This document shows positions 16,273-42,623 of a stretch of 64,000 nucleotides of DNA, one piece after another. Each line of letters begins with the position of its first letter. The first letter of the stretch is position 1. The notes beneath the pieces were generated by a model. That model searched no databases. It was given only the letters and a program-made list of their open reading frames with translations, and was not told the origin of the DNA. Origin of the DNA: Ideonella aquatica (GTDB lineage: Bacteria; Pseudomonadota; Gammaproteobacteria; Burkholderiales; Burkholderiaceae_C). The stretch spans positions 1 through 64,000 of the forward strand of contig NZ_JAGQDE010000003.1 in the NCBI RefSeq assembly GCF_018069755.1. Direction: 5' to 3'. A program made the position numbers and the translations under genes.

Positions 16273-16287
16273 TGTAGCGAATATACA
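16273..16287. promoter_or_regulatory. Putative operator TGTA-N7-TACA (malK side)
   Basis: The 15-mer TGTAGCGAATATACA, preceded by AA, lies 43-57 bases upstream of the malK start in the malK/glgP intergenic region. It matches the three other sites listed in this window. The next copy is centred 114 bp away. Position close to the malK start suggests repression of the mal operon. Confidence 0.6.
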
Positions 16288-16386
16288 TCGCAAGACGGGT
16301 GCTTCGAACCGATGTGATGGCGGGGTTTTCCCGGTCATGCACCTATGTAGAACTTGATTGACTCGCCTCATTTTCACGACCTGGAA

Positions 16387-16401
16387 TGTAGTCAAACTAC
16401 A
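16387..16401. promoter_or_regulatory. Putative operator TGTAGT-CAA-ACTACA (glgP side)
   Basis: A perfect 6+6 palindrome with a 3-base centre, TGTAGTCAAACTACA, again preceded by GAA. It lies 89-103 bases upstream of the glgP start. A weaker half-site TGTAGAACTTG lies at 16346. The arms are the best of the four copies and define the probable consensus AATGTAG-N5-CTACA. Confidence 0.6.
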
Positions 16402-16489
16402 CAAATCGTCGGAAATTGGTGATACTGGCCTCCATCGCGCCGAAGCCGCCGCACCGCAGCCTGGCGCCATCCTTGCCTGGAGGACCGTG

Positions 16490-18937
<2,448 letters not shown>

Positions 18938-18950
18938 GGACGCTGCCACG

Positions 18951-21140
18951 ATGCTGACCGACCACGACGCCCAGGCGCTGCTGAACGCCCACCACCCGGA
19001 CCCGTTTGCGGTGCTGGGCCTGCATGCCGACGCCGACGGGCGGCTGTGGGTGCGCGCGCTGCTGCCGGGCGCCACGGCCGTGGAGGTGGTGGCGGTGGCC
19101 ACCGGCCAGCGGGTGGCCACGCTGAGTGCCCGCGCCGACATGCCGCTGTTCGAGGGCCTGGTGCCGCGTCGCAAGCTGCGCTTCGACTACCGCCTGCGCA
19201 TCACCTGGGACCACGGCGGCAGCAGCCTGCTGGCCGACCCCTATGCGATCGGCCCGCTGCTGGGCGACGCCGACCTGCATTACTTCGCCGAGGGCAGCCA
19301 CCTGCGCCCCTTCGAGATGCTGGGCGCGCTGCCGATGACGCTGGGCGAGGGTCCGCATGCGCTGGCGGGCACCCGCTTTGCGGTCTGGGCGCCCGACGCG
19401 CGCCGCGTCAGCGTGGTGGGCGACTTCAACGCCTGGGATGGCCGGCGCCACCCGATGCGCGCGCGCGGCAGCTCGGGCGTGTGGGAGTTGTTCATCCCCG
19501 CCGCCGGCGTGGGCGATCGCTACAAGTTCGAGATCCTCGGCGCCGCCGGCCAGGTGCTGCCGCTGAAGGCCGACCCCTATGCCCGCGCCGCCGAGCTGCG
19601 ACCGGGCACTGCCAGCATCATTGCGCCGCTGCCGCAGCGGCGCGAGCGCGCCCCCGAGCGCCGCGTGGCCGACACCCGCGGCCAGCCGATCAGCGTCTAC
19701 GAGCTGCACGCCGGCAGCTGGCGCCGCCACCCGGATGGCCGCTGGCACGACTGGGACGAACTGGCCGCCGCGCTGCCCGCCTACGTGGCCGGCCTGGGCT
19801 TCACGCACGTGGAGCTGCTGCCGATCAGCGAGCATCCGTTCGATGGCAGCTGGGGCTACCAGACCCTGGGCCTGTACGCGCCCACCGCACGCTTTGGCGG
19901 GCCCGAGGCCTTCCAGCGCTTCGTTGACGCCTGCCATGCGCATGGTCTGGGCGTGGTGCTCGACTGGGTGCCGGCACACTTTCCCACCGACGCCCATGGC
20001 CTGGCACAGTTCGATGGCAGCGCCCTCTACGAGTACGCCGACCCGCGCGAAGGCTTCCACCGCGACTGGAACACGCTGATCTACAACTTCGGCCGCCGCG
20101 AGGTGGCCAACTTCCTGGTCGGCAGCGCGCTGTACTGGGTCGAGCGCTACGGCATTGACGGCCTGCGGGTCGACGCGGTGGCCTCGATGCTCTACCGCGA
20201 CTACAGCCGCCCGGCCGGTGAATGGGTGCCCAACGTGCACGGCGGCCGCGAGAACCTCGAGGCGATCGCGCTGCTGCGCCGCACTGCCGAGGTGCTGGGC
20301 CAGGAAGCGCCCGGCGCGCTGCTGTTTGCCGAGGAGTCCACCGCCTTCCCTCAGGTGTCGGCGCCCACCTTTGCCGGCGGCCTGGGCTTTCACTACAAGT
20401 GGAACATGGGCTGGATGCACGACACCCTGGCCTACCTGCGCGAAGACCCGGTGAACCGGCGCTGGCACCACGACAAGATGAGCTTCGGCCTGGTCTACGC
20501 GTTCAGCGAGCACTTTGTGCTGGCGCTCTCGCACGACGAGGTGGTGCATGGCAAGGGCTCGCTGCTGACCAAGATGCCGGGCGACGCCTGGCAGCAGGCC
20601 GCCAACCTGCGCGCCTACTACGGCTTCATGTGGGGCCACCCCGGCAAGAAGTTGCTGTTCATGGGCCAGGAGTTCGGCCAGCCCAGCGAGTGGAACCACG
20701 ACGCCGAGCTGCCCTGGGGCCTGCTGGGCCAGCCGCGCCACGCCGGCATCCAGCGCTGCGTGGCCGACCTCAACCGCCTGTACCGGGATGAACCGGCGCT
20801 GCATGCGCTGGACTGCGACGGCGCCGGCTTCGAATGGCTGCTGGTGGATGCGCGCGAGCTGTCGGTCTTCGCCTGGGTGCGCCGCGACGGCCAGGGCCGC
20901 GAGGCCATCGTGGTGTGCAACTTCACGCCGGTGCCGCGGCCCGGTTTCCGCCTGGGCGTGCCGGCCGGCGCCGGGGCCTGGCGCGAAGCGCTCAACAGCG
21001 ATGCGGCGGTCTACGGTGGCAGCAACCAGGGCAATGGCGGGCAGACGCTGGTGGTGCAGGCCGAGCCCGCCACCGGCCGCGGGCAGTCCATCACGCTGAC
21101 GCTGCCGCCGCTGGCCACACTGATCCTGCTGCCGGCATGA
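18951..21140 (+). CDS. glgB: 1,4-alpha-glucan branching enzyme
   Basis: This 729-residue cytosolic GH13 enzyme cuts alpha-1,4 chains and makes alpha-1,6 branches. The N-terminal domain starts at [16 protein letters not shown]48-type domain carries [22 protein letters not shown] (about residues 142-163). The barrel has nucleophile D408 ([11 protein letters not shown]), acid/base E461 (FAEEST) and D529 ([12 protein letters not shown]). The long form with the extra N-terminal module is the usual proteobacterial type. It follows glgP by 13 bases and precedes glgX by 19, so it is in the operon. The ATG at 18951 was chosen because it is the first codon after the glgP stop that fits the family. Confidence 0.96.
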
Positions 21141-21159
21141 GGCTTGCACCGCACTGGCC

Positions 21160-23265
21160 ATGAACGTGCATCTCCCCACCCAGCTGCTGGAAGGCCGGCC
21201 CGAGCCGATGGGCGCGCTGGCGCGCGACGGCGGCGTCAACATCGCGGTGTTCTCGCAGCATGCCGAGGCCGTCGAATGGTGCATCTTCGACGCCAGCGGC
21301 ACGCGTGAGCTCAAGCGCTACCGGCTGCACGGACCGCACGACCAGGTCTTCCACGGCTTTCTGCCCGGTGTCGGGCCCGGCCTGGTCTACGGCCTGCGTG
21401 CGCACGGCCCCTACCAGCCCGAGCAGGGCCACCGCTTCAACCCGCACAAGCTGCTGCTCGATCCCTGCGCGCGCGAGATCGTCGGCCGCTTCCACTGGTC
21501 CGATGAGCACCATGGCTACGAGGTGGGCCACCCCGAGGGCCCGCGCAGCTTCGACCGCCGCGACAACGCCGTCAGCGCCCTCAAGGCCCGCGTGCCCGAG
21601 GCCATCGGCCCGGCGCCCGGCCGCGCCAACGCACCCCGCGTGCCAGCGTCCGACCTGGTGCTCTACGAAGTCCACGTCAAGGGCTTCAGCCAGCAGCACC
21701 CGGCCATTGCGCCAGCGCTGCGCGGCAGCTATGCGGCGCTGGCCCACCCGGCCAGCCTGGCCCATTTCAAGCGCCTGGGGGTGACCACGCTGAGTCTGCT
21801 GCCGGTGCAGCAGCGCCTGGATGAATCGCACCTGGCCGAGCGCGGCGCCACCAATTACTGGGGCTACAACACGCTGGGCTTCTTCGCCCCCGAGCCGCGC
21901 CTGGCCAGCGCGGCGGCGCGCCACGATCCGGCGCTGGTGCGCGAGGAGTTCCGCGCCATGGTCGATACCCTGCACCAGGCCGGCCTGGAGGTGGTGCTCG
22001 ACGTGGTCTACAACCACACGCCCGAAGGCAGCGAGGCCGGCCCCACGATCAGCTGGCGCGGCCTGGACCACGCCGCCTGGTACCTGCTGCGTGCCGACGA
22101 CGCCAGCCACTGCGAGAACCACACCGGCTGCGGCAACACGCTCAACGTGGCGCACCCGCGCGTCACGCAGTTCGTGCTGGACAGCCTGCGCCACTGGGTC
22201 GAGGCCTATGGGGTGGATGGCTTCCGGTTTGATCTGGCGCCGGTGCTGGGCCGTGGCCGCCATGGCTTCGACCCGCAGGCCGCCTTCTTCACCGCGCTGC
22301 GCCAGGACCCGCTGCTGGCCCAGGTCCACCTGATCGCCGAGCCCTGGGATGCCGGCTGGGGCGGCTACCAGCTGGGCCGCTTCCCCGGCAGGTTCCTGGA
22401 GTGGAACGACAAGTTCCGCGACACCGTGCGCCGCTACTGGCTGGACCGCAGCGTGCGCCGCGGCGAGCTGGCGCGGCGCTTCACCGCCTCGTCCGACCTG
22501 TTCCACCACGGCCAGCGCAGCCCCAGCGCCAGCGTCAACTTCATCACCGCACATGATGGCTTCACGCTGGCCGATGTGGTCAGCTACGCTGGCAAGCACA
22601 ACCGGGCCAATGGTGAAGACAACCGCGACGGCCGCGACGGTGAACCCTGCGCGCCCTTCGGCCCCGAGGGACCGAGCGAGGACCCGGCGGTGATCGCGCT
22701 GCGCGGCCGCGTGCAGCGCGCCATGCTGGCCACGCTGCTGCTGGCCCAGGGCACGCCGATGCTGGGCGGTGGCGACGAGTCCGGCCGCAGCCAGCAGGGC
22801 AACAACAACGCCTACTGCCAGGACAACCCGCTGACCTGGCACGACTGGACGCAGCCCGACGAGGCGCTGACCCAGGTCGTGGCCGACCTGATCGCGCTGC
22901 GCCGCGCCGAGCCTGCGCTGCACCACGACCGCTGGTTCCAGCACGCACCGGCCGCGGCCGGCGAGCGCAGCCTGATGTGGTTCACCCCCAATGGCCAGGA
23001 GATGCAGGTGGCCGACTGGCACGACAGCCACAGCCACGCCTTCGCCTGCAAGATCCTGCCCGGCGCCGATGCGCCCCCCGCTGAGCGCCGGCTGATGCTG
23101 GCCTTCAACCCCGACATCCTGCCCACCCGCTTCACACTGCCGCCCGGGCGTTGGCAGGTGGCGCTCGATTCCTCTGGTGAACTGCTGCGCGGCCTGGAGC
23201 CGCCACGCGGTGCGCCGCTGATGGTGCCTGCGCATGCGCTGGTCGTGCTGCGCAGCCTCGATTGA
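21160..23265 (+). CDS. glgX: Glycogen debranching enzyme GlgX
   Basis: This 701-residue cytosolic isoamylase-type GH13 removes short alpha-1,6 side chains left by phosphorylase. An N-terminal CBM48-like domain (VNIAVFSQHAEAVEWCIFD) precedes the barrel. Catalytic landmarks are DVVYNHTPEGSE, FRFDLAPVLG (nucleophile Asp), LIAEPWDAG (acid/base Glu) and ITAHDGFTLADVVSY. The GEDNRDG segment is typical of GlgX. Length is in the normal 650-720 range. It lies between glgB and malQ, which together form a complete glycogen degradation and recycling set with glgP. Confidence 0.95.
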   Translation: MNVHLPTQLLEGRPEPMGALARDGGVNIAVFSQHAEAVEWCIFDASGTRELKRYRLHGPHDQVFHGFLPGVGPGLVYGLRAHGPYQPEQGHRFNPHKLLLDPCAREIVGRFHWSDEHHGYEVGHPEGPRSFDRRDNAVSALKARVPEAIGPAPGRANAPRVPASDLVLYEVHVKGFSQQHPAIAPALRGSYAALAHPASLAHFKRLGVTTLSLLPVQQRLDESHLAERGATNYWGYNTLGFFAPEPRLASAAARHDPALVREEFRAMVDTLHQAGLEVVLDVVYNHTPEGSEAGPTISWRGLDHAAWYLLRADDASHCENHTGCGNTLNVAHPRVTQFVLDSLRHWVEAYGVDGFRFDLAPVLGRGRHGFDPQAAFFTALRQDPLLAQVHLIAEPWDAGWGGYQLGRFPGRFLEWNDKFRDTVRRYWLDRSVRRGELARRFTASSDLFHHGQRSPSASVNFITAHDGFTLADVVSYAGKHNRANGEDNRDGRDGEPCAPFGPEGPSEDPAVIALRGRVQRAMLATLLLAQGTPMLGGGDESGRSQQGNNNAYCQDNPLTWHDWTQPDEALTQVVADLIALRRAEPALHHDRWFQHAPAAAGERSLMWFTPNGQEMQVADWHDSHSHAFACKILPGADAPPAERRLMLAFNPDILPTRFTLPPGRWQVALDSSGELLRGLEPPRGAPLMVPAHALVVLRSLD

Positions 23266-23281
23266 TGGAGACAAGACCCCC

Positions 23282-24796
23282 ATGGACCTGACCCAACGCG
23301 CCAGTGGTGTGCTGCTGCATGTCACCTCGCTGCCCGGCCCGCACGGCATCGGCGACTTCGGCCCCGACGCGTACCGCTTCGTCGACTGGCTGGCCAGCGC
23401 CGGCCAGCGCCTGTGGCAGTGGCTGCCGACCACGCCGATCGGCCCGGGCAACTCGCCCTACCAGAGCGTCTCGGCCTTTGCCGGCAGTCCGCTGATGGTG
23501 GCGCTGGAGCCACTGGTCGAGCGCGGCTGGCTGCGCCTGGACACGGTGCCCGACTTCGACGCCAGCCGTGTCGATTTCGGCCGCATCGTGCCCTGGCGCA
23601 TGGACCGCCTGCGCGACGCCTTCGCCGGCTTCGAGCGCCACGCGCTGGCCAGCGACCGCGCCGCGCTGGCCGAGTGGCAGGCCGCCCAGGCCCACTGGCT
23701 GGACGACTACACGCTGTTCATGGCGCTGGAGACGGCGCACGGCGGCCAACCCTGGTGGACCTGGGACGACGGCCTGCGCCGCCGCCTGAAGAAGCCGCTG
23801 GCCGCCGCGCGCACGCAGCACGCCGCCGAGATCGCCTTCTGGGCCTGGGTGCAGTGGTGCTTCGACACCCAGGCCGCGGCGCTCAAGGCCTATGCCAATG
23901 CGCGCGATGTGCACCTGATGGGCGACCTGCCGATCTTCATCGCCCACCACAGCGCCGACTGCTGGGCCCGCCCCGAGCTGTACTACCTGGACGAGCAGTG
24001 CCAGCCCACCGTGGTGGCCGGTGTGCCGCCCGATGTCTTCACCGCGCTGGGCCAGCGCTGGGGCAATCCGCTGTACCGCTGGGACAAGATGAAGAAGGAG
24101 GATTTCGCCTGGTGGAGCGCCCGCATCCGCCGCGCGATGGACCAGGCCGATGTCTTCCGCATCGACCACTTCCGGGGCTTTGCCGGCTACTACGAGATCC
24201 CGGCCAGCTGCCCCACCGCGGTGGAAGGGACCTGGAAGCCAGGGCCGGGGAAGGCCTTGTTCGAGGCGATCGAGCGCGCGCTGGGCCCGCTGCCCATCAT
24301 TGCCGAGGACCTGGGCCTGGTGACGCCCGACGTGATCGAGCTGCTCGAGGCCACCGGCTTTCCGCGCATGAAGATCGTGCAGTTCGCCTTCGGCGACGAC
24401 GGCACGCACGAGTTCCTGCCGCACAACTACGATCCCAACACCGTGGTCTACACCGGCACCCACGACAACGACACGGTGCGCGGCTGGTGGGCCACGGCCA
24501 CGCCGCGCGAGCGCGAGTACGCCTGCTGCTACATGGCCTGCGGCGAGCACGACATCCACTGGGGCATGATCCGCGCCGCGGCCAACTCGGTGTCCAACCT
24601 GGCGGTGTTTCCGCTGCAGGATGTGCTGGGCCTGGGACCCGAGCACCGCATGAACCTGCCGGGCAGCCTGGGCGATCACAACTGGAGCTGGCGCTTCGGC
24701 TGGGAGATGCTGGGCGCCGAGCCGGCGCGGGTGCTGGGCCTGATCACCGCAGCGGCCGGCCGCGGGCCGTTCGAGCTGCTGAAACTGCCGGCTTAA
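23282..24796 (+). CDS. malQ: 4-alpha-glucanotransferase (amylomaltase)
   Basis: This 504-residue GH77 enzyme disproportionates short maltodextrins, extending them so that phosphorylase can act and freeing glucose. Signatures are HVTSLPGPHGIGDFG at the start, VFRIDHFRGFAGYYEIP (nucleophile Asp), IIAEDLGLVTPDV (acid/base Glu) and YTGTHDNDTVRGWW. Length matches the short bacterial form lacking the extra N-terminal domains of E. coli MalQ. It is the last gene of the glg operon, 16 bases after glgX. It converges on the small membrane protein gene, overlapping its end by 4 bases. This convergent overlap leaves no room for a terminator. Confidence 0.95.
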   Translation: MDLTQRASGVLLHVTSLPGPHGIGDFGPDAYRFVDWLASAGQRLWQWLPTTPIGPGNSPYQSVSAFAGSPLMVALEPLVERGWLRLDTVPDFDASRVDFGRIVPWRMDRLRDAFAGFERHALASDRAALAEWQAAQAHWLDDYTLFMALETAHGGQPWWTWDDGLRRRLKKPLAAARTQHAAEIAFWAWVQWCFDTQAAALKAYANARDVHLMGDLPIFIAHHSADCWARPELYYLDEQCQPTVVAGVPPDVFTALGQRWGNPLYRWDKMKKEDFAWWSARIRRAMDQADVFRIDHFRGFAGYYEIPASCPTAVEGTWKPGPGKALFEAIERALGPLPIIAEDLGLVTPDVIELLEATGFPRMKIVQFAFGDDGTHEFLPHNYDPNTVVYTGTHDNDTVRGWWATATPREREYACCYMACGEHDIHWGMIRAAANSVSNLAVFPLQDVLGLGPEHRMNLPGSLGDHNWSWRFGWEMLGAEPARVLGLITAAAGRGPFELLKLPA

Positions 24797-25077: not shown

Positions 25078-25174
25078 GAACGGCTCCTTGGGGCTTGATG
25101 TCCGGCACTGTCGGTCCGGCCGCGCACCGCCGCAATGACCTGCCAGGTCATCGGCGCCATCACCCGGCTCGCCT

Positions 25175-25924
25175 ATGCTCACGCCCATGCACCCCCTCAC
25201 CGCCCTGCGCCGCGAGCGGCGCGTCAGCCAGCTGGAACTGGGCCTGCGCGCCGGTGTGTCGCAGCGTCACCTGAGCTGCATCGAGACGGGTCGCGCCCGA
25301 CCCTCGCGCGCCACGCTGCTGGCCCTGCTGGATGCGCTGGACGCCCCCTTGGCCGAGCGCAACGCCGCGCTGCTGGCTGCCGGTCTGGCACCCGCCTACT
25401 CGCAGCACGGCCTGGATGCGCCACAGCTGGCGCCAGCGCTGGATGCGGTGCGGCAGATGCTGCACGCCCCCGGCAGCCCGCCCGCGCTGGTGCTGGACGC
25501 TGAATGGAATCTGCTGATGGCCAATGCCGGCGTGCAGCGCCTGCTGGCATTGATCGAGCTGCCGCTGCCTGAAGGCCCGCTGAACCTGCTGGACTGGTTG
25601 CTCAGCCCGCAGGGCCTGCGCAGCCGCCTGCTCAACGAGGCCGAGACCTGCGGCGAGGTGCTGCACCGCGCCCGGCGCGAAGCCCAGCACCTGCCGGCGC
25701 TGGCAGCCCGGCTGCAGCGCCTGTCGGCCGGCCTGCCGGACTGGCCGATGCCCACTGCAGCCACGCCGCTGCTGCTGACCCGACTGCGGTCCACAGCGGG
25801 AGATCTGAGCCTGTTCTCGATGTTCAGCAGCTTCGGCGCCCCTCTGGACGTGACCCTGGCCTCCCTGCGCATCGAGCACCTGTGGGCCGCCGATGCCCGG
25901 ACCGCTGCGCTGCTGCAAGGCTGA
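25175..25924 (+). CDS. XRE-family transcriptional regulator with MmyB-type ligand domain
   Basis: This 249-residue protein has an N-terminal helix-turn-helix (LRRERRVSQLELGLRAGVSQRHLS, residues about 9-32) followed by IETGRARPSR. The C-terminal part holds PALVLDAEWNLLMANAG, the landmark of MmyB-like ligand-binding domains that resemble PAS folds. Such regulators control small-molecule or redox responses; the ligand is unknown. The start may be 25175 or the Met four codons on (25187). It is divergent from the small membrane protein gene, which may be its target. Confidence 0.8.
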   Translation: MLTPMHPLTALRRERRVSQLELGLRAGVSQRHLSCIETGRARPSRATLLALLDALDAPLAERNAALLAAGLAPAYSQHGLDAPQLAPALDAVRQMLHAPGSPPALVLDAEWNLLMANAGVQRLLALIELPLPEGPLNLLDWLLSPQGLRSRLLNEAETCGEVLHRARREAQHLPALAARLQRLSAGLPDWPMPTAATPLLLTRLRSTAGDLSLFSMFSSFGAPLDVTLASLRIEHLWAADARTAALLQG

Positions 25925-26042
25925 GCAACGCACCGATTCGGCGCACCGCCAGGAAAGACCGGTGGAACCCGTCTTCTCCGCGCTCAGGCACCGGGCGTTT
26001 GCGCCGATAGTGTGGACATGCGTTTCATGCGAAGGTCAGGCC

Positions 26043-26300: not shown

Positions 26301-26309
26301 GGGGTCGCC

Positions 26310-31857: not shown

Positions 31858-31886
31858 GGGCGTCCTTCGCAACGGCAGCGCACAAC

Positions 31887-31913: not shown

Positions 31914-31932
31914 CAGGGGCGAGGCGAGGGCC

Positions 31933-33878: not shown

Positions 33879-33885
33879 TCGCCCA

Positions 33886-34368
33886 TCACGGCCCGGGGCC
33901 GATCTCGGCCCCGGGCACCACCGACAGCAGCTCGAAGACACAGCACACCACCGGCATGTCGGGCGAGGGCGTGCGGCCGATGCGGGCGCACTCACGGCCG
34001 AAGAAGGCCTCGTGGGCCTGGCGCCAGAAGGCCAGCGAGCCATCACCCTCGCCCTCGATCGCGGCGTAGCGCGCATCCACCTGGTCGAAGGCCCGGATGT
34101 CGACCTCGGTGAGCCGGGTGACCAGGGCCGGTTGATGGCGATGGTCGATCACCAGCTCGATGTCGCCCACCTGTGGCAGGTCCTCGCCGTCATGCTCGAG
34201 GGCCCACAGCAGGCCGGTGCCGGCGCGCTTGCGGCCGCTGACGATCAGCGCCAGCAGCTCGCGCGAGAGCGCGGGCGAGTCGCCATAGCCGTCCACCCGC
34301 AGGCGGCCAGGCGGCAGGGTCACGCCCAGGGCACTCAGCCGCTGCAGCACGGCGTCGACATCGATCAT
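33886..34368 (-). CDS. ASCH domain protein
   Basis: This 160-residue cytosolic protein matches the COG4405 type of ASCH proteins. Conserved landmarks are YGDSPALSRELLALIVSGRK, VGDIELVIDH, LTEVDIRAFDQVDARYAAIEGEGD, SLAFWRQAHEAFF and MPVVCCVFEL. ASCH domains share a PUA-like RNA-binding fold; one E. coli relative is an N4-acetylcytidine amidohydrolase, but this subfamily is uncharacterised as far as I know. The ATG overlaps the stop of the AraC-type regulator by 4 bases, so both are coupled. It converges on the lipase-like gene with 7 bases between stops. Confidence 0.82.
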   Translation of the reverse strand: MIDVDAVLQRLSALGVTLPPGRLRVDGYGDSPALSRELLALIVSGRKRAGTGLLWALEHDGEDLPQVGDIELVIDHRHQPALVTRLTEVDIRAFDQVDARYAAIEGEGDGSLAFWRQAHEAFFGRECARIGRTPSPDMPVVCCVFELLSVVPGAEIGPGP

Positions 34369-35294
34369 CTGGGGCCTCTGATGGGTGACGGTGGGCGCTG
34401 CGCCAGCGGCCCGTGGCGGCGGTAGTCGCGCGGCGAGCAGCCGTGCCGGCGCCGGAACTGCTGGCCGAAGTGTGACAGCGTCGGAAAGCCGCAGTCCAGC
34501 GCGATCGCGGCCACTGGCTCGTCGCACTCCAGCAGGCGCTGCGCAGCCCAGCTGCAACGGGCGTCATTGACGAACTCGGTGAAGCCGCAGCCCAGCTCGC
34601 GGCGGAAGAAGCGACCAAAGGCCGCGGGGCTGATGCCGACGATGGCCGCAGCGTCGGCCACGCGCAGCTCGTCGCCCAGGTGGCGCTGGATCCAATCGAG
34701 CAGGCGCGTCAGGCGGTCGCGGCGAGCGGCGTGCACGGCATCGCTGCCAGCCACTGGCGCATGGCGCGACAGAGGGCGCAGCGCGTGGGCAGGCGCCTCG
34801 GCCAGCACGGCCAACAGCTCGATCAGCAGCGCGACGCGGCGGGGTGCATCGGCGCTGGGCATGCGCGCCAGCAGCGGCTGCACCTGCGCGCGGGTGGCGC
34901 CCTCCACGGCCAGGCCACGGGCGGCGCGGGCCAGCACGCCCGCCAGGCCAGCCAGCTCGGGCCAGGCCGCCTGGGCGCACCAGTCCTGCGGGAACTGCAG
35001 CACCGTGGCCTCGTGGCGGCCCTGCGCGGCCGGGCCCGCGCTCAGCCAGACGTGCGGCAGCTCGGCACCCAGCAGCACCAGATCGCCGTCGCCAAAGGGC
35101 TCGACGCGGTCGCCCACCCAGCGCAGGCCGCGGCCGCGCTCGATCCAGGTCAGCTCGCAGTGGCCGTGCCGGTGCAGGCTGCCGCGAAAGGCCGGCAGCC
35201 GCAGCCGCATGCAGCGCATCGAGGCCTCGGGGTGGCGGATGATCTCGCGGGCGATCTTCACGCTTGGCCGCGCAATGGGTTTGAAAACAGTCAT
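34365..35294 (-). CDS. AraC-family transcriptional regulator (cupin sensor)
   Basis: This protein of up to 310 residues has an N-terminal cupin sensor (LHRHGHCELTWIERGRGLRWVGD, then GDLVLLGAELPHVW) and a C-terminal double helix-turn-helix (LRVADAAAIVGISPAAFGRFF and CGFPTLSHFGQQFRRRHGCSPRDYRR). Such proteins usually bind a sugar and activate the neighbouring operon. It diverges from the GH13-PhyH-esterase-GH92 operon, whose genes are probably its targets. The start is uncertain. The ATG at 35294 gives the longest form, but a GTG at 35261 (before KIAREIIRHPEAS) fits the family start better and would leave the left operator arm outside the gene. Confidence 0.88.
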   Translation of the reverse strand: MTVFKPIARPSVKIAREIIRHPEASMRCMRLRLPAFRGSLHRHGHCELTWIERGRGLRWVGDRVEPFGDGDLVLLGAELPHVWLSAGPAAQGRHEATVLQFPQDWCAQAAWPELAGLAGVLARAARGLAVEGATRAQVQPLLARMPSADAPRRVALLIELLAVLAEAPAHALRPLSRHAPVAGSDAVHAARRDRLTRLLDWIQRHLGDELRVADAAAIVGISPAAFGRFFRRELGCGFTEFVNDARCSWAAQRLLECDEPVAAIALDCGFPTLSHFGQQFRRRHGCSPRDYRRHGPLAQRPPSPIRGPR

Positions 35295-35357
35295 TATGGG
35301 TGCGATGCGCGGCTGAAAGCGCCGGGAATCTCCGCAAGACTGGCTGTTTTCAACCCC
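35277..35357. promoter_or_regulatory. Paired 14-bp operator arms between araC-type gene and GH13 operon
   Basis: GGGTTTGAAAACAG at 35277-35290 and the complement of CTGTTTTCAACCCC at 35344-35357 match at 13 of 14 positions in opposite orientation, 67 bp centre to centre. Each arm sits near the start of one of the divergent genes. This fits binding of a dimeric or looping AraC-type regulator. Confidence 0.55.
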
Positions 35358-35371
35358 GCAGGCAGGCCTCG

Positions 35372-37018
35372 ATGTCTGAACCATGGTGGCGCGGCGCCAC
35401 CCTCTACCAGGTCTACCCGCGCAGCTTTGCCGATGCCAACGGCGACGGCATCGGCGACCTGCCCGGGTTGATCGAGCGCCTGCCCTACATCGCCTCGTTG
35501 GGTGTGGACGGGCTGTGGGTCTCGCCCTTCTTTCCCAGCCCGATGCGCGACTTCGGCTACGACGTCAGCGACCACTGCGGCGTCGATCCGCGCTTCGGCA
35601 CGCTGGCCGATGTCGATCGGCTGGTGGCCGAGGCGCACCGCCTGGGCCTGAAGCTGCTGATCGACCAGGTCTGGAGCCATACCGCGGCCGAGCATCCGTG
35701 GTTCCAGGCCAGCCGCGCCAGCCGCGAGGGGCCGCTGGCCGACTGGTACGTCTGGGCCGACCCGAAGCCCGACGGCAGCCCGCCCACCAACTGGCAAAGC
35801 TGGATGGGCGGCCCGGCCTGGCGCTGGGAGGCGCGCCGGCGCCAGTACCACCTGCACCAGTTCCTGCCGCAGATGCCGGACCTGAACTTTCACTGCCCGG
35901 CGGTGCAGGACGCGGTGCTGGAAATCGCCCGCTTCTGGCTGGAGCGCGGCGTCGACGGCTTTCGCCTGGACACCGCCAACCTCTACGCCCACGACCCGCT
36001 GCTGCGCGACAACCCGCCCGCCGAGCCCGGCCAGCGCGGCGACAGCCCGGTGCTGATGCAGCGCCACCTGCACACCATGGACCAGCCCGAGTCGCTGGCC
36101 TTTCTGCGCCGGCTTCGGCCTGTGTTGAACAGCTACCCGGACCGCTTCACCGTCGGCGAGATCGGTGGCCCCGAGCCGCTGGCCACGATGCAGGCCTACA
36201 CGGGCAGCGGCGATGCGCTGCACACCGCCTACTCCTTCGCCTTCCTGGGCGAGCGGCCCGATGCCGCCGACGTGGCGCGACAGTTGGCGGCCTGGGACGA
36301 CAGCGCGGGCTGGCCGTCCTGGGCCTTCTCGAACCACGACGTGCCGCGGGTGGCCACGCGCTGGGGCGATGGCGGTGCGGCCGGCTTCGGCTTCGGTGGC
36401 GCCGGCGCCGCGTCCGCCCGCCCGGGTGCCGGGGCGCTGACCTGGATGGCGCTGCTGATCGCGCTGCGCGGCACAGTCTTCATCTACCAGGGCGAGGAAC
36501 TGGGCCTGCCGCAGAGCCAGGTACCGCCCGAGTTGATGCAGGACCCTTACGGTCTGGCGAACTGGCCGCTGCTGCCCGGGCGCGATGGCTGCCGCACGCC
36601 GATGCCTTGGGTGCATGACGCGCCGCAGGCCGGTTTCAGCAGCGCCCGGCCCTGGCTGCCGGTGGATCCGGCCCATGCGGCGCTGGCGGTGGACCTCCAG
36701 CATGCCGACCCGCGGTCGATGCTGCAGTACACCCGCGCACTGATCGCGCTGCGCCGCCGCGAGCCCGCGCTGCGCGTGGGGTCCAGCCGGGTGCGCTGGG
36801 CCGAGGGCGAGGTGCTGGTGCTGCAGCGCGGCGAGAGCCCGGACGCGGTGCTGGTGGTGTTCAACCTGGGCGCCCGGCCGGCACCGCTGCCGGCCATGTC
36901 CCCCGGGCTGCTCGATCCGGCCCACTGCCTGTGGGCCCATCCCGCGCCGCTGTCCGCCGATCGGCCACTGCCGGCCGGTGCCGCCGCCTTCTACCGTCTG
37001 ACAGGACACTGGACATGA
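35372..37018 (+). CDS. GH13 alpha-glucosidase (oligo-1,6-glucosidase type), cytosolic
   Basis: This 548-residue enzyme has no signal peptide. It begins WWRGATLYQVYPRSFADANGDGIGDL, typical of exo-acting GH13 alpha-glucosidases. Catalytic landmarks are IDQVWSHTA, FRLDTANLY (nucleophile Asp), TVGEIGG (acid/base Glu) and SNHDVPR (Asp). The text GLPQSQVPPELMQDPYG matches the alpha-glucosidase/oligo-1,6-glucosidase groups. It leads a four-gene operon with a PhyH dioxygenase, an esterase and a GH92 enzyme. It should remove alpha-glucose from short sugars or a glycoside inside the cell; the natural substrate may be special to this locus. Confidence 0.87.
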   Translation: MSEPWWRGATLYQVYPRSFADANGDGIGDLPGLIERLPYIASLGVDGLWVSPFFPSPMRDFGYDVSDHCGVDPRFGTLADVDRLVAEAHRLGLKLLIDQVWSHTAAEHPWFQASRASREGPLADWYVWADPKPDGSPPTNWQSWMGGPAWRWEARRRQYHLHQFLPQMPDLNFHCPAVQDAVLEIARFWLERGVDGFRLDTANLYAHDPLLRDNPPAEPGQRGDSPVLMQRHLHTMDQPESLAFLRRLRPVLNSYPDRFTVGEIGGPEPLATMQAYTGSGDALHTAYSFAFLGERPDAADVARQLAAWDDSAGWPSWAFSNHDVPRVATRWGDGGAAGFGFGGAGAASARPGAGALTWMALLIALRGTVFIYQGEELGLPQSQVPPELMQDPYGLANWPLLPGRDGCRTPMPWVHDAPQAGFSSARPWLPVDPAHAALAVDLQHADPRSMLQYTRALIALRRREPALRVGSSRVRWAEGEVLVLQRGESPDAVLVVFNLGARPAPLPAMSPGLLDPAHCLWAHPAPLSADRPLPAGAAAFYRLTGHWT

Positions 37019-37821
37019 CCGACCTCGACCAGCCCTACCCCCTGGCTGCCGAGGCCATCGCGCGCTTTCGCCGCGATGGCTTCATCAAGCTCAAGAACGT
37101 GCTGAGCCCCGCCACGCTGGCGCACTACGGCGCCGAGGTCACGCGCCTGACGCTGGCCCTCAACACCGATCATCGTCCGCTGGCCGAGCGCAGCACCTAC
37201 GACCGCGCCTTCCTGCAGTTGATGAACCTGTGGGAGAAGAGCCCGCTGGTGGGCCGCTTCGTGATGGGCCAACGCCTGGGGCGCATCGCGGCCGAGCTGC
37301 TGGAGGTCGACGGCGTGCGCCTGTACCACGACCAGTCGCTGTACAAGGAGCCCGGCGGCGGCCTCACGCCCGCCCATGCCGACCAGTACTACTGGCCGCT
37401 GGCCAGCGACCGCACGATCACCGCCTGGATCCCGCTGCAGCCGGTGCCACCCGAGATGGGCCCGCTGGGCTTTTATGCGCGCAGCCAGTCGGTCGAGTTC
37501 GGGCGCGACCTGGGCATCAGTGATGAGAGCGAAGACAGGATCAGCGCCAACATGGCGCGCCACGGCTTTGAGTTCGTCAGCGGCGCGTTCGAGCTGGGCG
37601 AGGTCAGCTTCCACCTGGGTTGGACCTTCCACAAGGCCGGCGCCAACCACAGCCAGCGCCCGCGCTCGGTGATGACCATCATCTACATGGACGCCGCGAT
37701 GCGCCTGCTGCCAGCGCTCAACGCCGTGCAGGCCAACGACCGCGAGCAATGGTGCCCGGGTGCCAATGAGGGCGAGGTGATCGACACGCGCAAGAATCCG
37801 CTGATCTGGCACCGCCGCTGA
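37015..37821 (+). CDS. Phytanoyl-CoA dioxygenase (PhyH) family oxygenase
   Basis: This 268-residue protein resembles non-haem iron, 2-oxoglutarate-dependent oxygenases of the PhyH family. The facial triad is H121 and D123 (in TPAHADQYYW) with H206 (FHKAGANHSQRPR), and the arginine a few residues on would hold 2-oxoglutarate. All key residues are present. Family members hydroxylate acyl-CoAs, ectoine, halogenated natural products and others; the substrate here is unknown. Its start overlaps the GH13 stop by 4 bases, so it is coupled to carbohydrate genes. This suggests that the sugar is attached to, or is itself, the oxidised molecule. Confidence 0.82.
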   Translation: MTDLDQPYPLAAEAIARFRRDGFIKLKNVLSPATLAHYGAEVTRLTLALNTDHRPLAERSTYDRAFLQLMNLWEKSPLVGRFVMGQRLGRIAAELLEVDGVRLYHDQSLYKEPGGGLTPAHADQYYWPLASDRTITAWIPLQPVPPEMGPLGFYARSQSVEFGRDLGISDESEDRISANMARHGFEFVSGAFELGEVSFHLGWTFHKAGANHSQRPRSVMTIIYMDAAMRLLPALNAVQANDREQWCPGANEGEVIDTRKNPLIWHRR

Positions 37822-37825
37822 CACC

Positions 37826-38743
37826 ATGATCACCCGCCGCCACACCCTGAGCCTGCCGCTGCTGCTGAGCGCCTGTGCGCAGCCGCCGCTGACCCGGAGC
37901 CCCGCGATGCCCACCGTGCAGTTCGGTCGCCTCGAGCGCCTGCCCGCCATGGCCTCGCGCCAGGTCGACCCCCGTCCGGTCGACGTGTGGCTGCCGCCCG
38001 GCTATGACGGCCGGCGCCCTCACGCCGTGCTGTACATGCACGACGGCCAGATGCTGTTCGACCCCGCCACCACCTGGAACAAGCAGGCCTGGGAGATCGA
38101 CCGCATGGCGGCGCCGCTGCTGGCCCGCGGCGTGCTGCGCGACTTCATCGTGGTGGCGCCCTGGAACCTGGACAAGCTGCGCTTTGCCGAGTACTTCCCG
38201 CAGGCCTGGCTGCCCCTGCTGGACGATACCTGGCGCCAGACCCTGGCCGAGCGTGCGCTGCAGGGGCCGCCGCGCAGCGATGCCTACCTGCGCTACCTGG
38301 TTGAAGAGCTCAAGCCGGCGGTCGACGCCCGCTACGCCACGCAGCCCGGTCGCGAGCACTGCTTCCTGGGCGGCTCCAGCATGGGCGGCCTGATCAGCCT
38401 GTACGGGCTGTGCGAGCACCCGCAGGTGTTTGGCGGCGCCGCCTGCCTGAGCACACACTGGATCGGGGGCTTCGAGCGCAACGAGGTGGTCCCGGCTGCC
38501 GCGCTGCGCTACCTGCACGACAGGCTGCCGCCACCAGACAGCGTGCGGCTGTGGATGGACCGCGGCGATCAGGAGCTCGACGCACTGTATGACCAGGCCC
38601 AGGACCGGGTCGACGCCTTGATGGCCGCGAAGGGCTTTCGGGCACCGCAGTTTGCCAGCCGGGTCTATCCCGGCACCGGCCACAACGAGCGCGCCTGGCG
38701 CGACCGTCTGCCCGAGGTGCTGGGTTGTCTGCTGGGGACGTGA
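37826..38743 (+). CDS. Esterase-type alpha/beta hydrolase lipoprotein
   Basis: This 305-residue exported protein has a short signal with lipobox LLSAC, so it is probably a lipoprotein. The core matches the putative esterase family related to enterochelin and feruloyl esterases: VDVWLPPGYDG, VLYMHDGQMLFDP, nucleophile elbow GGSSMGGLIS, and a C-terminal PGTGHNE histidine. The serine and histidine are evident; an aspartate in MDRGDQELD may complete the triad. It should hydrolyse an ester, perhaps releasing an acyl or phenolic group from the substrate of the operon. It starts 4 bases after the PhyH gene and its stop overlaps the GH92 start. Confidence 0.8.
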   Translation: MITRRHTLSLPLLLSACAQPPLTRSPAMPTVQFGRLERLPAMASRQVDPRPVDVWLPPGYDGRRPHAVLYMHDGQMLFDPATTWNKQAWEIDRMAAPLLARGVLRDFIVVAPWNLDKLRFAEYFPQAWLPLLDDTWRQTLAERALQGPPRSDAYLRYLVEELKPAVDARYATQPGREHCFLGGSSMGGLISLYGLCEHPQVFGGAACLSTHWIGGFERNEVVPAAALRYLHDRLPPPDSVRLWMDRGDQELDALYDQAQDRVDALMAAKGFRAPQFASRVYPGTGHNERAWRDRLPEVLGCLLGT

Positions 38744-40887
38744 TGCGCCGCTGGCTGTGCGGGCTGACGCTGGCCACCTGGGGGCTGTCGGCAGCGTCGG
38801 CGGTCCACCGCGAGGTCGACCCCTTCATCGGCACCGACGGCACCGGCCATGTGACGCCCGGCGCCACCGTGCCCTTCGGCATGGTGTTCCCCGCGCCCGA
38901 CAACGCCGACCGCGGCTGGCGCTACAGCGCCGGCTACCAGTTCCGCCACCCGCGCATCCTGGGCTTCTCGAACACCCACCACAGCGGCGCCGGCATTCCG
39001 GAACTGGGCGACGTCCTGTTGCAGCCGCGCGCCGGCACGCACTGGGGCGCGCAGACGCGCGACTTCAGCGCCCGCAAGTCCGAGGAGCGTGCCCGCCCGG
39101 GCCACTACGCCGTGCGCCTGGCCGCCCATGGCGTGCGCGTCGAGCTGAGCGCCGCACCGAAGGTGGCCTTGCAGCGCTACCGCTTCGACCGACCGGGCCG
39201 CGTCCAGGTGCTGGTCGACCTGCAGCACGGCTTGCACTACGTCGATGGGCCGGCGGCGCTGCGCGCTGAGGTGAGGGCGCGCGACGACGGCCTGCAGGGC
39301 ACGGTCTGGCGGCGCAACTGGGTGGAGCGGCAGCTGTCCTTCGTCGTCCAGTTCAGCCAGCCGGTGCGCAAGCGCCAGACACTGCCGCCGCGGCCTGGCG
39401 ATCGGGCACCGCGTGAATTGCTGGAGTTCGACCTCGGCCGGGCGCGCACGCTGGAAGCGCGCATCGCCTTGTCCACCGTGGACGAGGCGGGTGCGCAAGG
39501 CAACCTCGACACCGTGGCGGGACAGTCCTTCGAGACGGTGCGTGACGCCGCCGAGACGGCGTGGACCGCGCTGCTGCAGCGCATCCGCATCCAGGCGGAT
39601 GCGCGCACGCGGCGCCTCTTCTACTCGGCGCTGTACCGCGCCCTGCAGCACCCCAGCGACATCGCCGACGCCGACGGCCGCGTGCGCGGCCCGCGTGGCG
39701 AGGTGCTGCAGGCGCCGGGTGGCGTCTACTACTCGACACTGAGCCTGTGGGACACCTTTCGTGCCTCGCACCCGCTGTTCACGCTGGTCGTGCCCGAGCG
39801 GGTGCCCGGCTTCGTCAACACCTTGCTGGCCCACCACCGGCAGATGGGCTGGCTGCCCTTGTGGACCAGCTGGGGCCGCGAGACCTACACCATGATCGGC
39901 AACCCGGCGCTGCCGGTGATCGCCGACGCGCTGGTCAAGGGTCTGGGCGAGGGCGGTGCGATCGACGAGCGCGCCGCGCTGGCGGCCATGGTCGAGACCA
40001 GCACCCGCGAGCGGCCCGACGCCCCGGCCTGGGCCCAGCGCGGCTGGCTGCTGCTGGACCAGCACGGCTACCTGCCCTTCGATCTGCAGGCCGGCGAGTC
40101 GGTCAGCATGACGGCCGAGTTGGGCTACGGCGATGCGGCGGTGGCAGCCGTCGCCCAGCGGCTGGGCGAGCCGGCGCTGGCCGAGCGTTTCCGCACCCGC
40201 TCGCGCGCTTGGCTGCAGCTGTTCGACGAGCAGACGCGCACGCTGCGCGGCAAGGACAGCCAGGGCCGCTGGCGCACGCCCTTCGACCCGGTGGCTGCCA
40301 CCTCGCCGCTGAAGAACCCCGGCGACTACACCGAGGCCAACGCCTGGCAATACACCGCCACGCCCGCGCTGCACGATGTGGCGGGTTTCCGCCAGCGCCT
40401 GGGTGGCGCAGCGGGTTTGGAGGCCTGGCTGGACCGCTTCTTCAGCCTGCCGGTGCCCCACCCGGACAAGCACCTGGGCCAGGAGGCGCTGATCGGCCAA
40501 TACGCCCACGGCAACGAGCCCAGCCACCACATCAGCTGGCTCTACGCCTACACCAACGCCCCCGAGAAGGGCCAGCGCCTGCGCGAGCGCATCGTGCGGC
40601 GCTTCTACGGCATCGGCCCGGGCGGTCTGGTCGGCAACGACGATGTCGGCCAGATGAGTGCCTGGCTGGTGTTCGCGTTGCTGGGCCTGTACCCGGCGCA
40701 GCCCTTCAGCGGCGAGTACGTGCTGGGGCAGCCCATGCTCAGGCAGGCCGAGCTGCGCCTGGCGGACGGTCGCTGGCTGCGCATCAGTGGACGCGGGGCC
40801 CGCGCGCTGCTGGACGGCCGGCCGGTGGACGCACCGGCCGTGCGCCACCAGGACCTGGTCGGCGCGCAGCACCTGCATTGGCGCTGA
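38743..40887 (+). CDS. GH92 family alpha-mannosidase-like protein, exported
   Basis: This 714-residue protein has a signal peptide (RRWLCGLTLATWGLSAASA). The GH92 fold follows: DPFIGTDGTGHVTPGATVPFGM, SAGYQFRHPRILGFSNTHHSG, YTEANAWQYT, GNEPSHHISWLY and GNDDVGQMSAWLVF. These are the family's calcium and catalytic-region motifs. GH92 enzymes are calcium-dependent exo-alpha-mannosidases, best known from Bacteroidetes. Length is near normal. The start TGATG overlaps the esterase stop, so it is coupled in the operon. Specificity (alpha-1,2, -1,3, -1,4 or mannosyl-phosphate) cannot be read from sequence. Confidence 0.9.
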   Translation: MRRWLCGLTLATWGLSAASAVHREVDPFIGTDGTGHVTPGATVPFGMVFPAPDNADRGWRYSAGYQFRHPRILGFSNTHHSGAGIPELGDVLLQPRAGTHWGAQTRDFSARKSEERARPGHYAVRLAAHGVRVELSAAPKVALQRYRFDRPGRVQVLVDLQHGLHYVDGPAALRAEVRARDDGLQGTVWRRNWVERQLSFVVQFSQPVRKRQTLPPRPGDRAPRELLEFDLGRARTLEARIALSTVDEAGAQGNLDTVAGQSFETVRDAAETAWTALLQRIRIQADARTRRLFYSALYRALQHPSDIADADGRVRGPRGEVLQAPGGVYYSTLSLWDTFRASHPLFTLVVPERVPGFVNTLLAHHRQMGWLPLWTSWGRETYTMIGNPALPVIADALVKGLGEGGAIDERAALAAMVETSTRERPDAPAWAQRGWLLLDQHGYLPFDLQAGESVSMTAELGYGDAAVAAVAQRLGEPALAERFRTRSRAWLQLFDEQTRTLRGKDSQGRWRTPFDPVAATSPLKNPGDYTEANAWQYTATPALHDVAGFRQRLGGAAGLEAWLDRFFSLPVPHPDKHLGQEALIGQYAHGNEPSHHISWLYAYTNAPEKGQRLRERIVRRFYGIGPGGLVGNDDVGQMSAWLVFALLGLYPAQPFSGEYVLGQPMLRQAELRLADGRWLRISGRGARALLDGRPVDAPAVRHQDLVGAQHLHWR

Positions 40888-40899
40888 AGCGCGGGTCGC

Positions 40900-42540
40900 T
40901 CAACCGTCGATCGCGAACACCGCCACCGACTGCGGCGCCAGCATGAAGGCGCTGGCATCCGCGGGTCCTGGGCTGCTGCGCCACAACAGCGTCGGGCGCA
41001 CCCCGTCGGGCAGCCCGACGGGCCGGGCCAGCGCAGGACCCTGGCCGTAGTTGATCAGCACCAGTGTGCGTTCGTTGCCCAGACGGCGCTGGAAGGCCAG
41101 CAGCAGGCCATCGGCGCTGCTGTGCGCGAAGTCGCCCCGGGCCAGGCTGGGTCGGGCGTTGCGCAGGCCGATCACCTCGCGGTAGAAGTGCCACAGCGAG
41201 TGCGGGTCAGCGCGCTGCGCGGCCAGGTGGTGGGTGTCGGCATTGGGCGCGCGTCCGTTGTAGGGGCCTTTGGGGCTGAAGCCGGCGCCGGGGCGCTCCG
41301 CGTTCCAGCTCATCGAGCCGCGCACCGGCCGGTCGCCCGTCAGGCCCGGCAGGCTGGCCTGGCCGACCTCCTCGCCGTAGTAGACGAAGGGCGTGCCGGG
41401 CTGCAGCAGGTAGCCGGCGGCGGCCAGGCGGTAGCGGGCCTCGTCGCCGCCTACCTGGTCCCACAGGCGCAGGCCGGCGAAGATGTCATGGCTGCTGGTG
41501 AAGGTGGCCATGCGTGGCGACGCGCTGCGGTAGTACGTGGCCAGCGCCGCCACCGACGAGGCCTCACCCTGCGCCGCCTTGACGAAGTGGTGCTGGTAGC
41601 CAAAGGCGAAGGCGCCGCCGCACACTGCTGGGTCGCCATAGGCCTGCGGCTCGGCGGTGGCTTCGCAGACCACATAGCGGTTCGGGTAGGCGAGGATGGT
41701 GTCCTGCAGCCGCTTGGTCAGGGCACGGCTCTCGGGCTGGTCGTTCCAGCGCACCGCGTCGTTCTCGATCATGTGCGGCACGGCATCCAGTCGGAAGCCG
41801 TCCAGTCCGCGGTTGAGCCAGAAGCGCAGCGAGTCCAGGTGGTACTCGAAAACCTCCGGCCGGCGCAGGTTGAAGTCGGGCATGTGCGGCCCGAAGGTGC
41901 CGAAGAAGTGGTCCTTCGCGCCTGGCGGCGCGGGCGGCTGGGTTTTGGGGTCGCCGTGCTCCCAGGGGCGGCTGGGCAGCCAGTACCAGGGGTTGGCGTC
42001 CCAGATCTTCCAGCCCTGGGGCGCGTCCTGGCTGAAGACGAACCAGTCGCGCCAGGGACTGCGCGGATCGGCGATGGCCGCCTGGAAGGCCGGGTGCTGC
42101 CACGAGGCATGGTTGACCACGTAGTCCATCACCACACCGATGCCGCGGCGGTGGGCCTCGCGCAGCAGCGTATCCATGTCGTCCAGCGTGCCGTAGGCGG
42201 GCTCCACCGCGCGGTGGTCGGTGGTGGCGTAGCCATGGTCGTGGTCGGCGCTGGCGGTGATCGGCATCAGCCACAGGCCACGGATGCCCAGTGCCTGCAG
42301 CTCGTCCAGGCGGCTGATCAGGCCGCGCAGGTCGCCGATGCCGTCGCCATCGCTGTCCTGGTACGCCCGGACGAAAATCTCCATGAACACACCCTGCTGC
42401 CAGCCGGCGGGCAGGGCGCTGGGGGCGGCACGCATCGGCTGCGGGCTGCGGTCGAAGGCCGGCTCGGCGGCGGCCAGGGCCCAGGTGCTCCACAGGGCCA
42501 GGGTTGTTGCACGCAGCGTGTGTAGTATGGCTACATTCAT
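40900..42540 (-). CDS. Secreted GH13 alpha-amylase
   Basis: This 546-residue exported enzyme has a signal peptide (TLRATTLALWSTWALAAA) and a barrel with YQDSDGDGIGDL, MDYVVNHAS, FRLDAVPHM (nucleophile Asp), VVCEATAEP (acid/base Glu) and TSSHDIF (Asp). The last motif has Ser-His-Asp where Asn-His-Asp is usual. A C-terminal beta domain follows. It should cut starch or glycogen outside the cytoplasm. It diverges from the pullulanase gene with 92 bases between starts. A TGTA-N7-TACA palindrome lies inside its second to seventh codons. No other start codon that keeps the signal peptide is evident. Confidence 0.88.
   Translation of the reverse strand: MNVAILHTLRATTLALWSTWALAAAEPAFDRSPQPMRAAPSALPAGWQQGVFMEIFVRAYQDSDGDGIGDLRGLISRLDELQALGIRGLWLMPITASADHDHGYATTDHRAVEPAYGTLDDMDTLLREAHRRGIGVVMDYVVNHASWQHPAFQAAIADPRSPWRDWFVFSQDAPQGWKIWDANPWYWLPSRPWEHGDPKTQPPAPPGAKDHFFGTFGPHMPDFNLRRPEVFEYHLDSLRFWLNRGLDGFRLDAVPHMIENDAVRWNDQPESRALTKRLQDTILAYPNRYVVCEATAEPQAYGDPAVCGGAFAFGYQHHFVKAAQGEASSVAALATYYRSASPRMATFTSSHDIFAGLRLWDQVGGDEARYRLAAAGYLLQPGTPFVYYGEEVGQASLPGLTGDRPVRGSMSWNAERPGAGFSPKGPYNGRAPNADTHHLAAQRADPHSLWHFYREVIGLRNARPSLARGDFAHSSADGLLLAFQRRLGNERTLVLINYGQGPALARPVGLPDGVRPTLLWRSSPGPADASAFMLAPQSVAVFAIDG
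42521..42535. promoter_or_regulatory. Putative operator TGTA-N7-TACA overlapping the amylase start
   Basis: The 15-mer TGTAGTATGGCTACA is read on the minus strand as AATGTAGCCATACTACA, matching the malK/glgP sites. It lies within codons 2-7 of the secreted amylase, so a bound repressor would block both initiation and elongation. The next site is centred 88 bp away. Confidence 0.6.
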
Positions 42541-42608
42541 AAGCCTGGATGCTGGCACATGGCTGAGGAGTTGCCAAGAGATGCGGTTTCACGCATGGTC
42601 AAACTGGC

Positions 42609-42623
42609 TGTAATTTGGGTACA
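42609..42623. promoter_or_regulatory. Putative operator TGTA-N7-TACA before the pullulanase gene
   Basis: The 15-mer TGTAATTTGGGTACA, followed by TT (so AATGTA on the minus strand), ends 9 bases before the pullulanase ATG. It matches the four-base arms of the other three sites but has a weaker inner part. Together with the site at 42521 it brackets the divergent promoters. Confidence 0.5.

Follow-up and report, generated by a model that had tools for sequence, protein, structure and literature searches.

In repressors of the ROK family (Mlc, NagC), a sugar-kinase fold has become the sensing part. Within the RpiR family, GlvR controls a maltose phosphotransferase system and a phospho-alpha-glucosidase without a kinase domain, and HexR has its classical place beside zwf. 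GlvR of Bacillus subtilis is named as a regulator of maltose genes in the available text of PMC2860498. According to the accessible parts of two reports, the RpiR protein RccR of Pseudomonas binds 15-base-pair (bp) TGTAGT/ACTACA palindromes, as seen by chromatin immunoprecipitation sequencing, surface plasmon resonance and footprinting, and binds TGTAGTTTTACTACT and TGTAGTAAAACTACA, two sites upstream of aceE that are 68 bp apart (PMC5489143); it serves pyruvate metabolism, the glyoxylate shunt and gluconeogenesis and binds 2-keto-3-deoxy-6-phosphogluconate (KDPG) (PMC5489143, PMC10810197). The targets reported for proteobacterial HexR are zwf, edd, eda, glk, pykA and other central genes (RegPrecise reconstruction, PMC5343134), and the words maltose and starch are absent from the part of that paper available to us. 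Here we describe four palindromes of the same type in a 64,000-nucleotide stretch of Ideonella aquatica (the window: C33:1-64000, in a genome of 5.17 Mb on 58 contigs), which are very probably, judging from comparative sequence data, operators of a glucokinase–HexR (Glk–HexR) fusion encoded elsewhere in the genome and controlling one starch and glycogen regulon.

The sites lie in two regions. In the first, a malK-malE-malF-malG-GH13-GH13 run diverges from glgP-glgB-glgX-malQ; in the second, a GH13 amylase gene diverges from a pullulanase gene. The predicted operators are:

16273..16287, TGTAGCGAATATACA, malK side, found by pattern search and matrix
16387..16401, TGTAGTCAAACTACA, glgP side, 28.4 and 28.8 bits in two matrix scorings
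42521..42535, TGTAGTATGGCTACA, amylase side
42609..42623, TGTAATTTGGGTACA, pullulanase side, 10 bp upstream of the ATG

A full pattern search of the window returned exactly these four matches to TGTA-N7-TACA (16273, 16387, 42521, 42609), so that the impression of an earlier note on this stretch that there were no further copies proved right; shuffled windows held 0.04 matches on average and none of 100 reached four. The spacings of 114 and 88 bp within the pairs and the shared AATGTA context, which for 42521 and 42609 is read on the minus strand, are likewise as that note described them. A weight matrix trained on 13 sites from the genome, the four window sites included, was run over the window, where only these four operators exceeded 9.3 bits (19.7, 28.8, 25.5 and 20.4). 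The earlier placement of all four between divergent genes needs correcting for one of them: given a start of the amylase open reading frame (ORF) at the ATG at 42540, the true start being uncertain, 42521-42535 covers its codons 2-7 and is not strictly intergenic. Related genomes also carry a site pair in the amylase–pullulanase region, and the malK-side operator is kept as TGTAGAGAATATACA in most of 13 aligned genomes. Between the two operators of the first region (window 16340-16370) most aligned relatives also possess a conserved block, AAATCAAT..CTT, that is not clearly shared by the window.

Further predicted sites of the same type occur elsewhere in the genome:

C1:105151/105236 (L041:6152/6237), site pair 100-200 bp 5' of a second, PUD-bearing pullulanase ORF
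C3:118081/118147 (L040:6082, 6148), site pair between a divergent glucokinase gene and the glucokinase–RpiR fusion gene
C3:123128 (L040:11129), site between a GH13 gene and a TonB-dependent receptor gene, which is followed by a tryptophan-halogenase-type gene
C3:127829/127916 (L040:15830/15917), site pair upstream of a second malE-malF-malG run
C27:869/903 (L042:869/903), site pair 5' of a gene whose product has a TonB C-terminal domain

The matrix scores its own 13 sites at 16.9-31.5 bits, and the TonB-dependent receptor has a weaker second site (13.3 bits) 144 bp from C3:123128. These same-genome sites, together with conservation across many genera, support the proposal of the earlier note that one regulon joins maltodextrin import, glycogen and maltodextrin metabolism and external starch digestion.

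The regulator was left unnamed in that note. It is not encoded in the window, and it need not stay nameless: the best candidate, and most likely the regulator on sequence grounds, is the Glk–RpiR fusion encoded at C3:116107-117981. The search for RpiR-type proteins in the genome gave just two, this fusion and a stand-alone HexR (C22) directly downstream of zwf. The fusion carries a glucokinase domain (367 bits) and, both above the Pfam cut-off, an RpiR helix–turn–helix (HTH_6, 66 bits) and a SIS domain (52.5 bits), the combination by which the RpiR/HexR family is recognised. Its nearest NCBIfam models are the PRK14101 bifunctional regulator/glucokinase model NF010701 (831 of 920 bits, below cut-off) and HexR (NF008451, 232 of 296 bits, also below cut-off). 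The solved structure closest to its RpiR part is that of RccR, 8K3B; a predicted structure of the fusion (mean predicted local distance difference test score, pLDDT, 74.5; predicted template modelling score, pTM, 0.54) was not used for any claim. Predicted 15-bp operators of the TGTA..TACA type stand at the fusion's own and at its target promoters, and the pair in the fusion's own divergent promoter would fit the suggestion that the regulator gene be sought beside a site. In a tree of 35 fusion proteins the family's fusions fall into several supported branches, some of the deep forks being weak. Searches of the open-licence literature found no report of a Glk–RpiR regulator of starch or maltose genes; an earlier computational prediction in RegPrecise may exist.

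Like the fusion, RccR combines an RpiR helix–turn–helix with a SIS domain and recognises two copies of a 15-bp site with TGTAGT/ACTACA half-sites, as far as the available text describes it. Unlike RccR, the fusion is associated with alpha-glucan genes, possesses a glucokinase domain and has most of its KDPG contacts replaced. HexR resembles the fusion in its family, in an odd-length pseudo-palindrome and in having glk among its targets, according to the accessible part of PMC5343134.

The association between sites and fusion extends well beyond this genome. Among 100 genomes of the family, 24 encode the fusion at near full length, judged from match ranges. The exact word TGTAG-N5-CTACA is present in 16 of these 24 (44 places) as against 8 of 56 non-fusion genomes (10 places; Fisher 7e-6), the 56 being those used out of 76 after seven were dropped for low completeness and 13 others left out. 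Using a matrix without the fusion's own sites, we found at least one close upstream site at the fusion in 16 of the 24 genomes and two or more in 15. In the remaining eight loci the fusion lies behind glk in one run (L060, L065, L067), at a contig edge (L069) or at the end of a malK-E-F-G-GH13 run, as in four genomes (L071-L074); in the I. paludis-like G076 it follows a glg-malQ-glk run. A wider set of 80 named fusion loci (1.47 Mb; Ideonella, Roseateles, Rubrivivax, Paucibacter, Pelomonas, Mitsuaria, Aquabacterium, Undibacterium, Leptothrix and others), searched with a matrix lacking the fusion's own two sites, has a site within 700 bp 5' of the fusion in 70 cases and two in 52. These loci hold 245 sites in total, none inside genes matched by reference proteins and nearly all beside the fusion, glk, a TonB receptor, an amylase or a pullulanase gene, compared with 0, 3 and 2 sites in three Markov shuffles and a mean of 9.6 (largest 42) for 100 symmetric column-permuted matrices. 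The named loci overlap partly with the genomes that bear G handles (Roseateles toxinivorans and G062, for instance), and the fusion rows are closely akin, so these counts are not independent events.

Target promoters give a similar picture. Between malK and glgP, 12 of 13 genomes (this one included) have at least two sites of at least 13 bits, L112 having one; 11 of the 12 relatives were fetched because of an exact site, and G083 through its glgP gene only. The 23 glgP genes from non-fusion genomes that served as a control have no upstream site above 13.6 bits, three reaching 13.0-13.6. A pullulanase homologue (E 1e-60) is encoded in 21 of the 24 fusion genomes versus none of the 56 others. 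At 28 pullulanase loci outside this genome, picked by protein alone and not by motif, a site of at least 16 bits was found in 25 and a pair in 23, mostly about 77-119 bp apart; the exceptions are L269, L274 (a partial match) and L275 (a contig edge). Twenty of the stretches around exact sites outside fusion promoters include 11 malK|glgP regions, two amylase|pullulanase regions, one TonB receptor, one GH13 gene, one place near GH13 and malK, and two places 5' of gene runs that contain ExbB, whose first gene has no Pfam match (ExbD was confirmed in one of the two).

Both the RpiR and the kinase part of the fusion depart from their relatives. The structure of RccR with KDPG (8K3B) names nine contact residues in the available text of PMC10810197. 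Aligned through the stand-alone HexR, all nine are present in 22 of 23 stand-alone rows, and the 94 fusion rows of the group called glucan (all rows not classed as zwf or unknown, including ten loci with only glk nearby) retain 3.0 on average and five at most. The Ideonella fusion keeps the equivalents of R152, S183 and S185 only; across the 94 rows S139 is replaced by Tyr in 81, H148 by Phe in 72 and H164 by Arg in 82. In zwf operons, four HexR proteins encoded by separate genes keep nine contacts and two zwf-linked fusions keep four. Judged by this alignment, the sugar-acid sensor usual in HexR appears to be lost in the fusion, and KDPG is unlikely to be the fusion's ligand. One result speaks against a simple loss of the pocket: changing S139, H148 or H164 of RccR to Ala is reported to abolish DNA binding (PMC10810197, available text), and the fusion must therefore couple these positions differently.

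In the kinase part, the Asn of the GGTN loop is replaced by Tyr, Phe or Trp in 102 of the 105 fusion rows (two have Asn and one a gap) and is present in 85 of 85 stand-alone Glk2 proteins; the motif is intact in 7/7 zwf-linked rows and in 0/82 alpha-glucan-linked fusion rows. The catalytic Asp103 is Asp in 101 of 105 fusion rows and Asn in four; L311-L314 show the Asp to Asn change in fusions that end malK-E-F-G runs. E160, H163 and E190, which we take to be the glucose ligands in E. coli Glk, are invariant in 105/105 rows, and a separate glucokinase gene adjoins the fusion. We offer tentatively, as a possibility that falls short of an even chance, that the fused glucokinase is the sensor: a worn-out kinase may have yielded a glucose-sensing repressor that took over the starch regulon after leaving the zwf operon. 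The ROK repressors differ from the fusion in kinase family and DNA-binding domain, and the sensing role of Glk in the fusion would be the shared feature.

The second RpiR protein was compared with the fusion at the level of DNA sites. In 21 zwf promoters beside stand-alone HexR, the fifth base of the half-site is A in all 26 half-sites that score at least 11 of 12 (these come from 13 promoters, the other eight scoring 10); fusion loci, by comparison, have G at this base in 407 of 490 half-sites, a figure that is partly circular because the matrix favours G. The sites at zwf and edd in this genome are of the TGTAA/GGTAAC type, that of edd being GGTAACTTGGTTACA about 50 bp upstream, and we assign them to the stand-alone HexR. 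Other Burkholderiales families have glk-hexR within the zwf operon, and there the zwf promoter possesses fusion-type sites in all six regions (L299: 31.2 bits). These zwf-glk-hexR operons share with the fusion homologous Glk and RpiR parts and the site type; unlike the fusion they are linked to zwf and have GGTN intact. L299 and L300 were counted as zwf-linked only, their sugar-transporter genes being 28-57% identical to MalK/MalG. In L301-L304 glk and hexR are neighbouring separate genes of zwf operons, perhaps the state before fusion; these loci are absent from the fusion-row count, from which one duplicate was also dropped. At L325:8796-8988 three TGTAAT..ATTACA sites stand upstream of a glk-hexR fusion with intact GGTN, near which no zwf or alpha-glucan gene was matched. 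Residue 376 of the recognition helix, Gln in 103/105 fusion rows and Lys in 18/20 HexR rows, was considered as a specificity switch and rejected since Gln is also present in the zwf-linked glk-hexR rows; the residue marks lineage.

In the mechanism that we propose, a dimer of the fusion would bind each 15-bp palindrome, TGTAG[T/C]-N3-[A/G]CTACA, and sites paired about 85-115 bp apart across divergent promoters would allow one pair to serve two divergent genes. We infer repression without inducer and release once alpha-glucans have been broken down to glucose. The regulon would include both maltodextrin ATP-binding cassette (ABC) transporters, both pullulanases, the amylase, the glycogen phosphorylase operon, the TonB-dependent receptor, TonB, glucokinase and the regulator itself. 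Repression is the most likely action because the sites overlap sequences that are probably -10 and -35 elements. On the minus strand, TGTAGCGAATATACA contains TATATT, by eye the malK -10 in the alignment, and in the malK–glgP alignment of 13 genomes the second operator, where present, covers TTGTAT 17 bp upstream of TATATT, similarly read as the malK -35. TGTAGTCAAACTACA lies immediately 5' of a conserved GATACT, which the same reading by eye makes the glgP -10, and the pullulanase-side operator TGTAATTTGGGTACA contains TGTAAT, a possible -10 of that gene.

The genes of the two regions are as follows:

8447..9973, minus strand, GH13 alpha-glucosidase/amylase-type gene (Pfam Alpha-amylase)
9977..11542, minus strand, GH13, cyclomaltodextrinase-like (best NCBIfam match NF041090, under cut-off)
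11539..12429, minus strand, malG (Pfam BPD_transp_1)
12429..13931, minus strand, malF (Pfam MalF_P2, BPD_transp_1)
13928..15118, minus strand, malE, solute-binding protein (Pfam SBP_bac_1)
15115..16230, minus strand, malK, ABC transporter ATPase (Pfam ABC_tran, OB_MalK, TOBE_2)
16490..18937, plus strand, glgP, glycogen/maltodextrin phosphorylase (Pfam Phosphorylase)
18951..21140, plus strand, glgB, branching enzyme (Pfam GlgB_N, CBM_48, Alpha-amylase_C)
21160..23265, plus strand, glgX-like debranching enzyme (Pfam CBM_48, Alpha-amylase; the GlgX label is our own reading)
23282..24796, plus strand, malQ, 4-alpha-glucanotransferase (Pfam Glyco_hydro_77)
40900..42540, minus strand, GH13 amylase (Pfam Alpha-amylase, DUF3459)
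42633..45320, plus strand, pullulanase (Pfam Pullul_strch_C, Pullulanase_N2, CBM_48)

A eukaryotic-type carbonic anhydrase gene (7328-8389, plus strand) adjoins the mal operon, a bicarbonate transporter gene (Sbt_1; 45345-46340, minus strand) adjoins the pullulanase gene, and an XRE-type regulator with an MmyB-like ligand domain is encoded downstream of the malQ operon (25187-25924, plus strand).

Several results weigh against a single regulon under the fusion. Genome-wide, the bare TGTA-N7-TACA occurs 22 times against 15 for a reversed-pattern control, close to chance; TGTAG-N5-CTACA occurs three times against four, and TGTAGT-N4-CTACA with up to two mismatches 315 times against 813. The control also exceeds TGTAG-N5-CTACA in most of the fusion and non-fusion genomes compared. 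We have therefore rejected motif frequency alone as proof, and the signal resides in location, pairing and conservation. Chance frequency of the motif across the genome, which the earlier note would have counted as a refutation, is thus what the bare pattern displays, but conservation at orthologous promoters was clearly found. Neither is the matrix free of error, since a 19-column version, run over 119 kb of the genome, returned a single unrelated 16-bit match in addition to the window sites, the rest being at most 11. Eight of the 24 fusion genomes lack the exact site and eight of the 56 non-fusion genomes have one; five further fusion genomes in which glgP lies away from malK have no glgP site (one is at a contig edge), the L269 (G061) pullulanase has none, and two of the 20 exact-site stretches (L120, L122) have no alpha-glucan neighbour. 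A consensus promoter scanner found no sigma-70 consensus promoter at these sites, so the promoter overlap described above is one read by eye from alignments. In genomes of the Oxalobacteraceae type another HexR-like gene lies near a TGTAGAAAANCTACA site, and the motif may thus be shared there. L192:4694, L207:3795 and L326:17228 are sites like TGTAGAAAANCTACA that lie close to a HexR-like gene; the fusion is encoded in these genomes too, and a third RpiR protein may share the motif there. That the four window matches are a mere coincidence of palindromic words, as the near-chance count of the bare pattern might suggest, is scarcely credible: position, pairing and conservation go far beyond shuffles and permuted matrices, and conservation already refutes it.

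Among the regulators that could use the sites instead is the stand-alone HexR beside zwf. It belongs to the same family and keeps all nine KDPG contacts, the search for RpiR proteins in the genome yielded nothing else besides the fusion, and at the fusion promoter GGTAACTTCACTACA is a site of intermediate type. That the alpha-glucan genes are simply part of the KDPG-responsive regulon of this HexR is nevertheless improbable, given the A rather than G preference at zwf promoters described above and the many genomes that have the stand-alone HexR alone without the sites. Still less probable is control by a LacI-type MalR or by the MmyB-like XRE regulator at 25187-25924. The latter gene is near the glg operon on the same strand, and six LacI-type proteins are encoded in the genome; but in the same-genus G076 the genes after malQ are glk and the fusion, with no XRE-type gene seen there, none of the LacI genes is close to a site that we found, and nothing links XRE or LacI genes to the sites. 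LacI-type control in particular was rejected: as the earlier note had stated, no such regulator is encoded in the window (all six lie on other contigs), and it was right that the odd-length, non-CG centre is unlike LacI operators, the element being a 15-bp palindrome of the RpiR type. A different question is whether the fusion itself activates some promoters. At glgP the site lies near -40, its centre about 40 bp upstream of the inferred start, which also fits an activator, and the conserved GATACT is accompanied by a poor -35 under the operator; for RccR a dual action is reported in the available part of PMC5489143. At malK the probable -10 lies under one operator and the probable -35 under the second, which fits repression, and we regard activation at some promoters as possible though rather doubtful.

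The HexR/RccR-type class of regulator is already known; the alpha-glucan targets, the loss of the pocket and the change in the kinase are new. New in particular would be that fusions with about three of nine KDPG contacts and no intact GGTN loop exert HexR-type control over an entire alpha-glucan regulon. In the literature searched, no regulator is described for the starch, maltodextrin and glycogen genes of the Sphaerotilaceae and relatives. For this large freshwater and soil group, including relatives such as Undibacterium, the Glk–HexR fusion provides a regulator of these genes that can be put to the test, together with a consensus site. It would represent a case of regulator rewiring in which a family of central-carbon repressors has moved to polysaccharide use with its ligand pocket and fused kinase changed; and if the kinase domain is the sensor, it would be an independent parallel to the ROK repressors.

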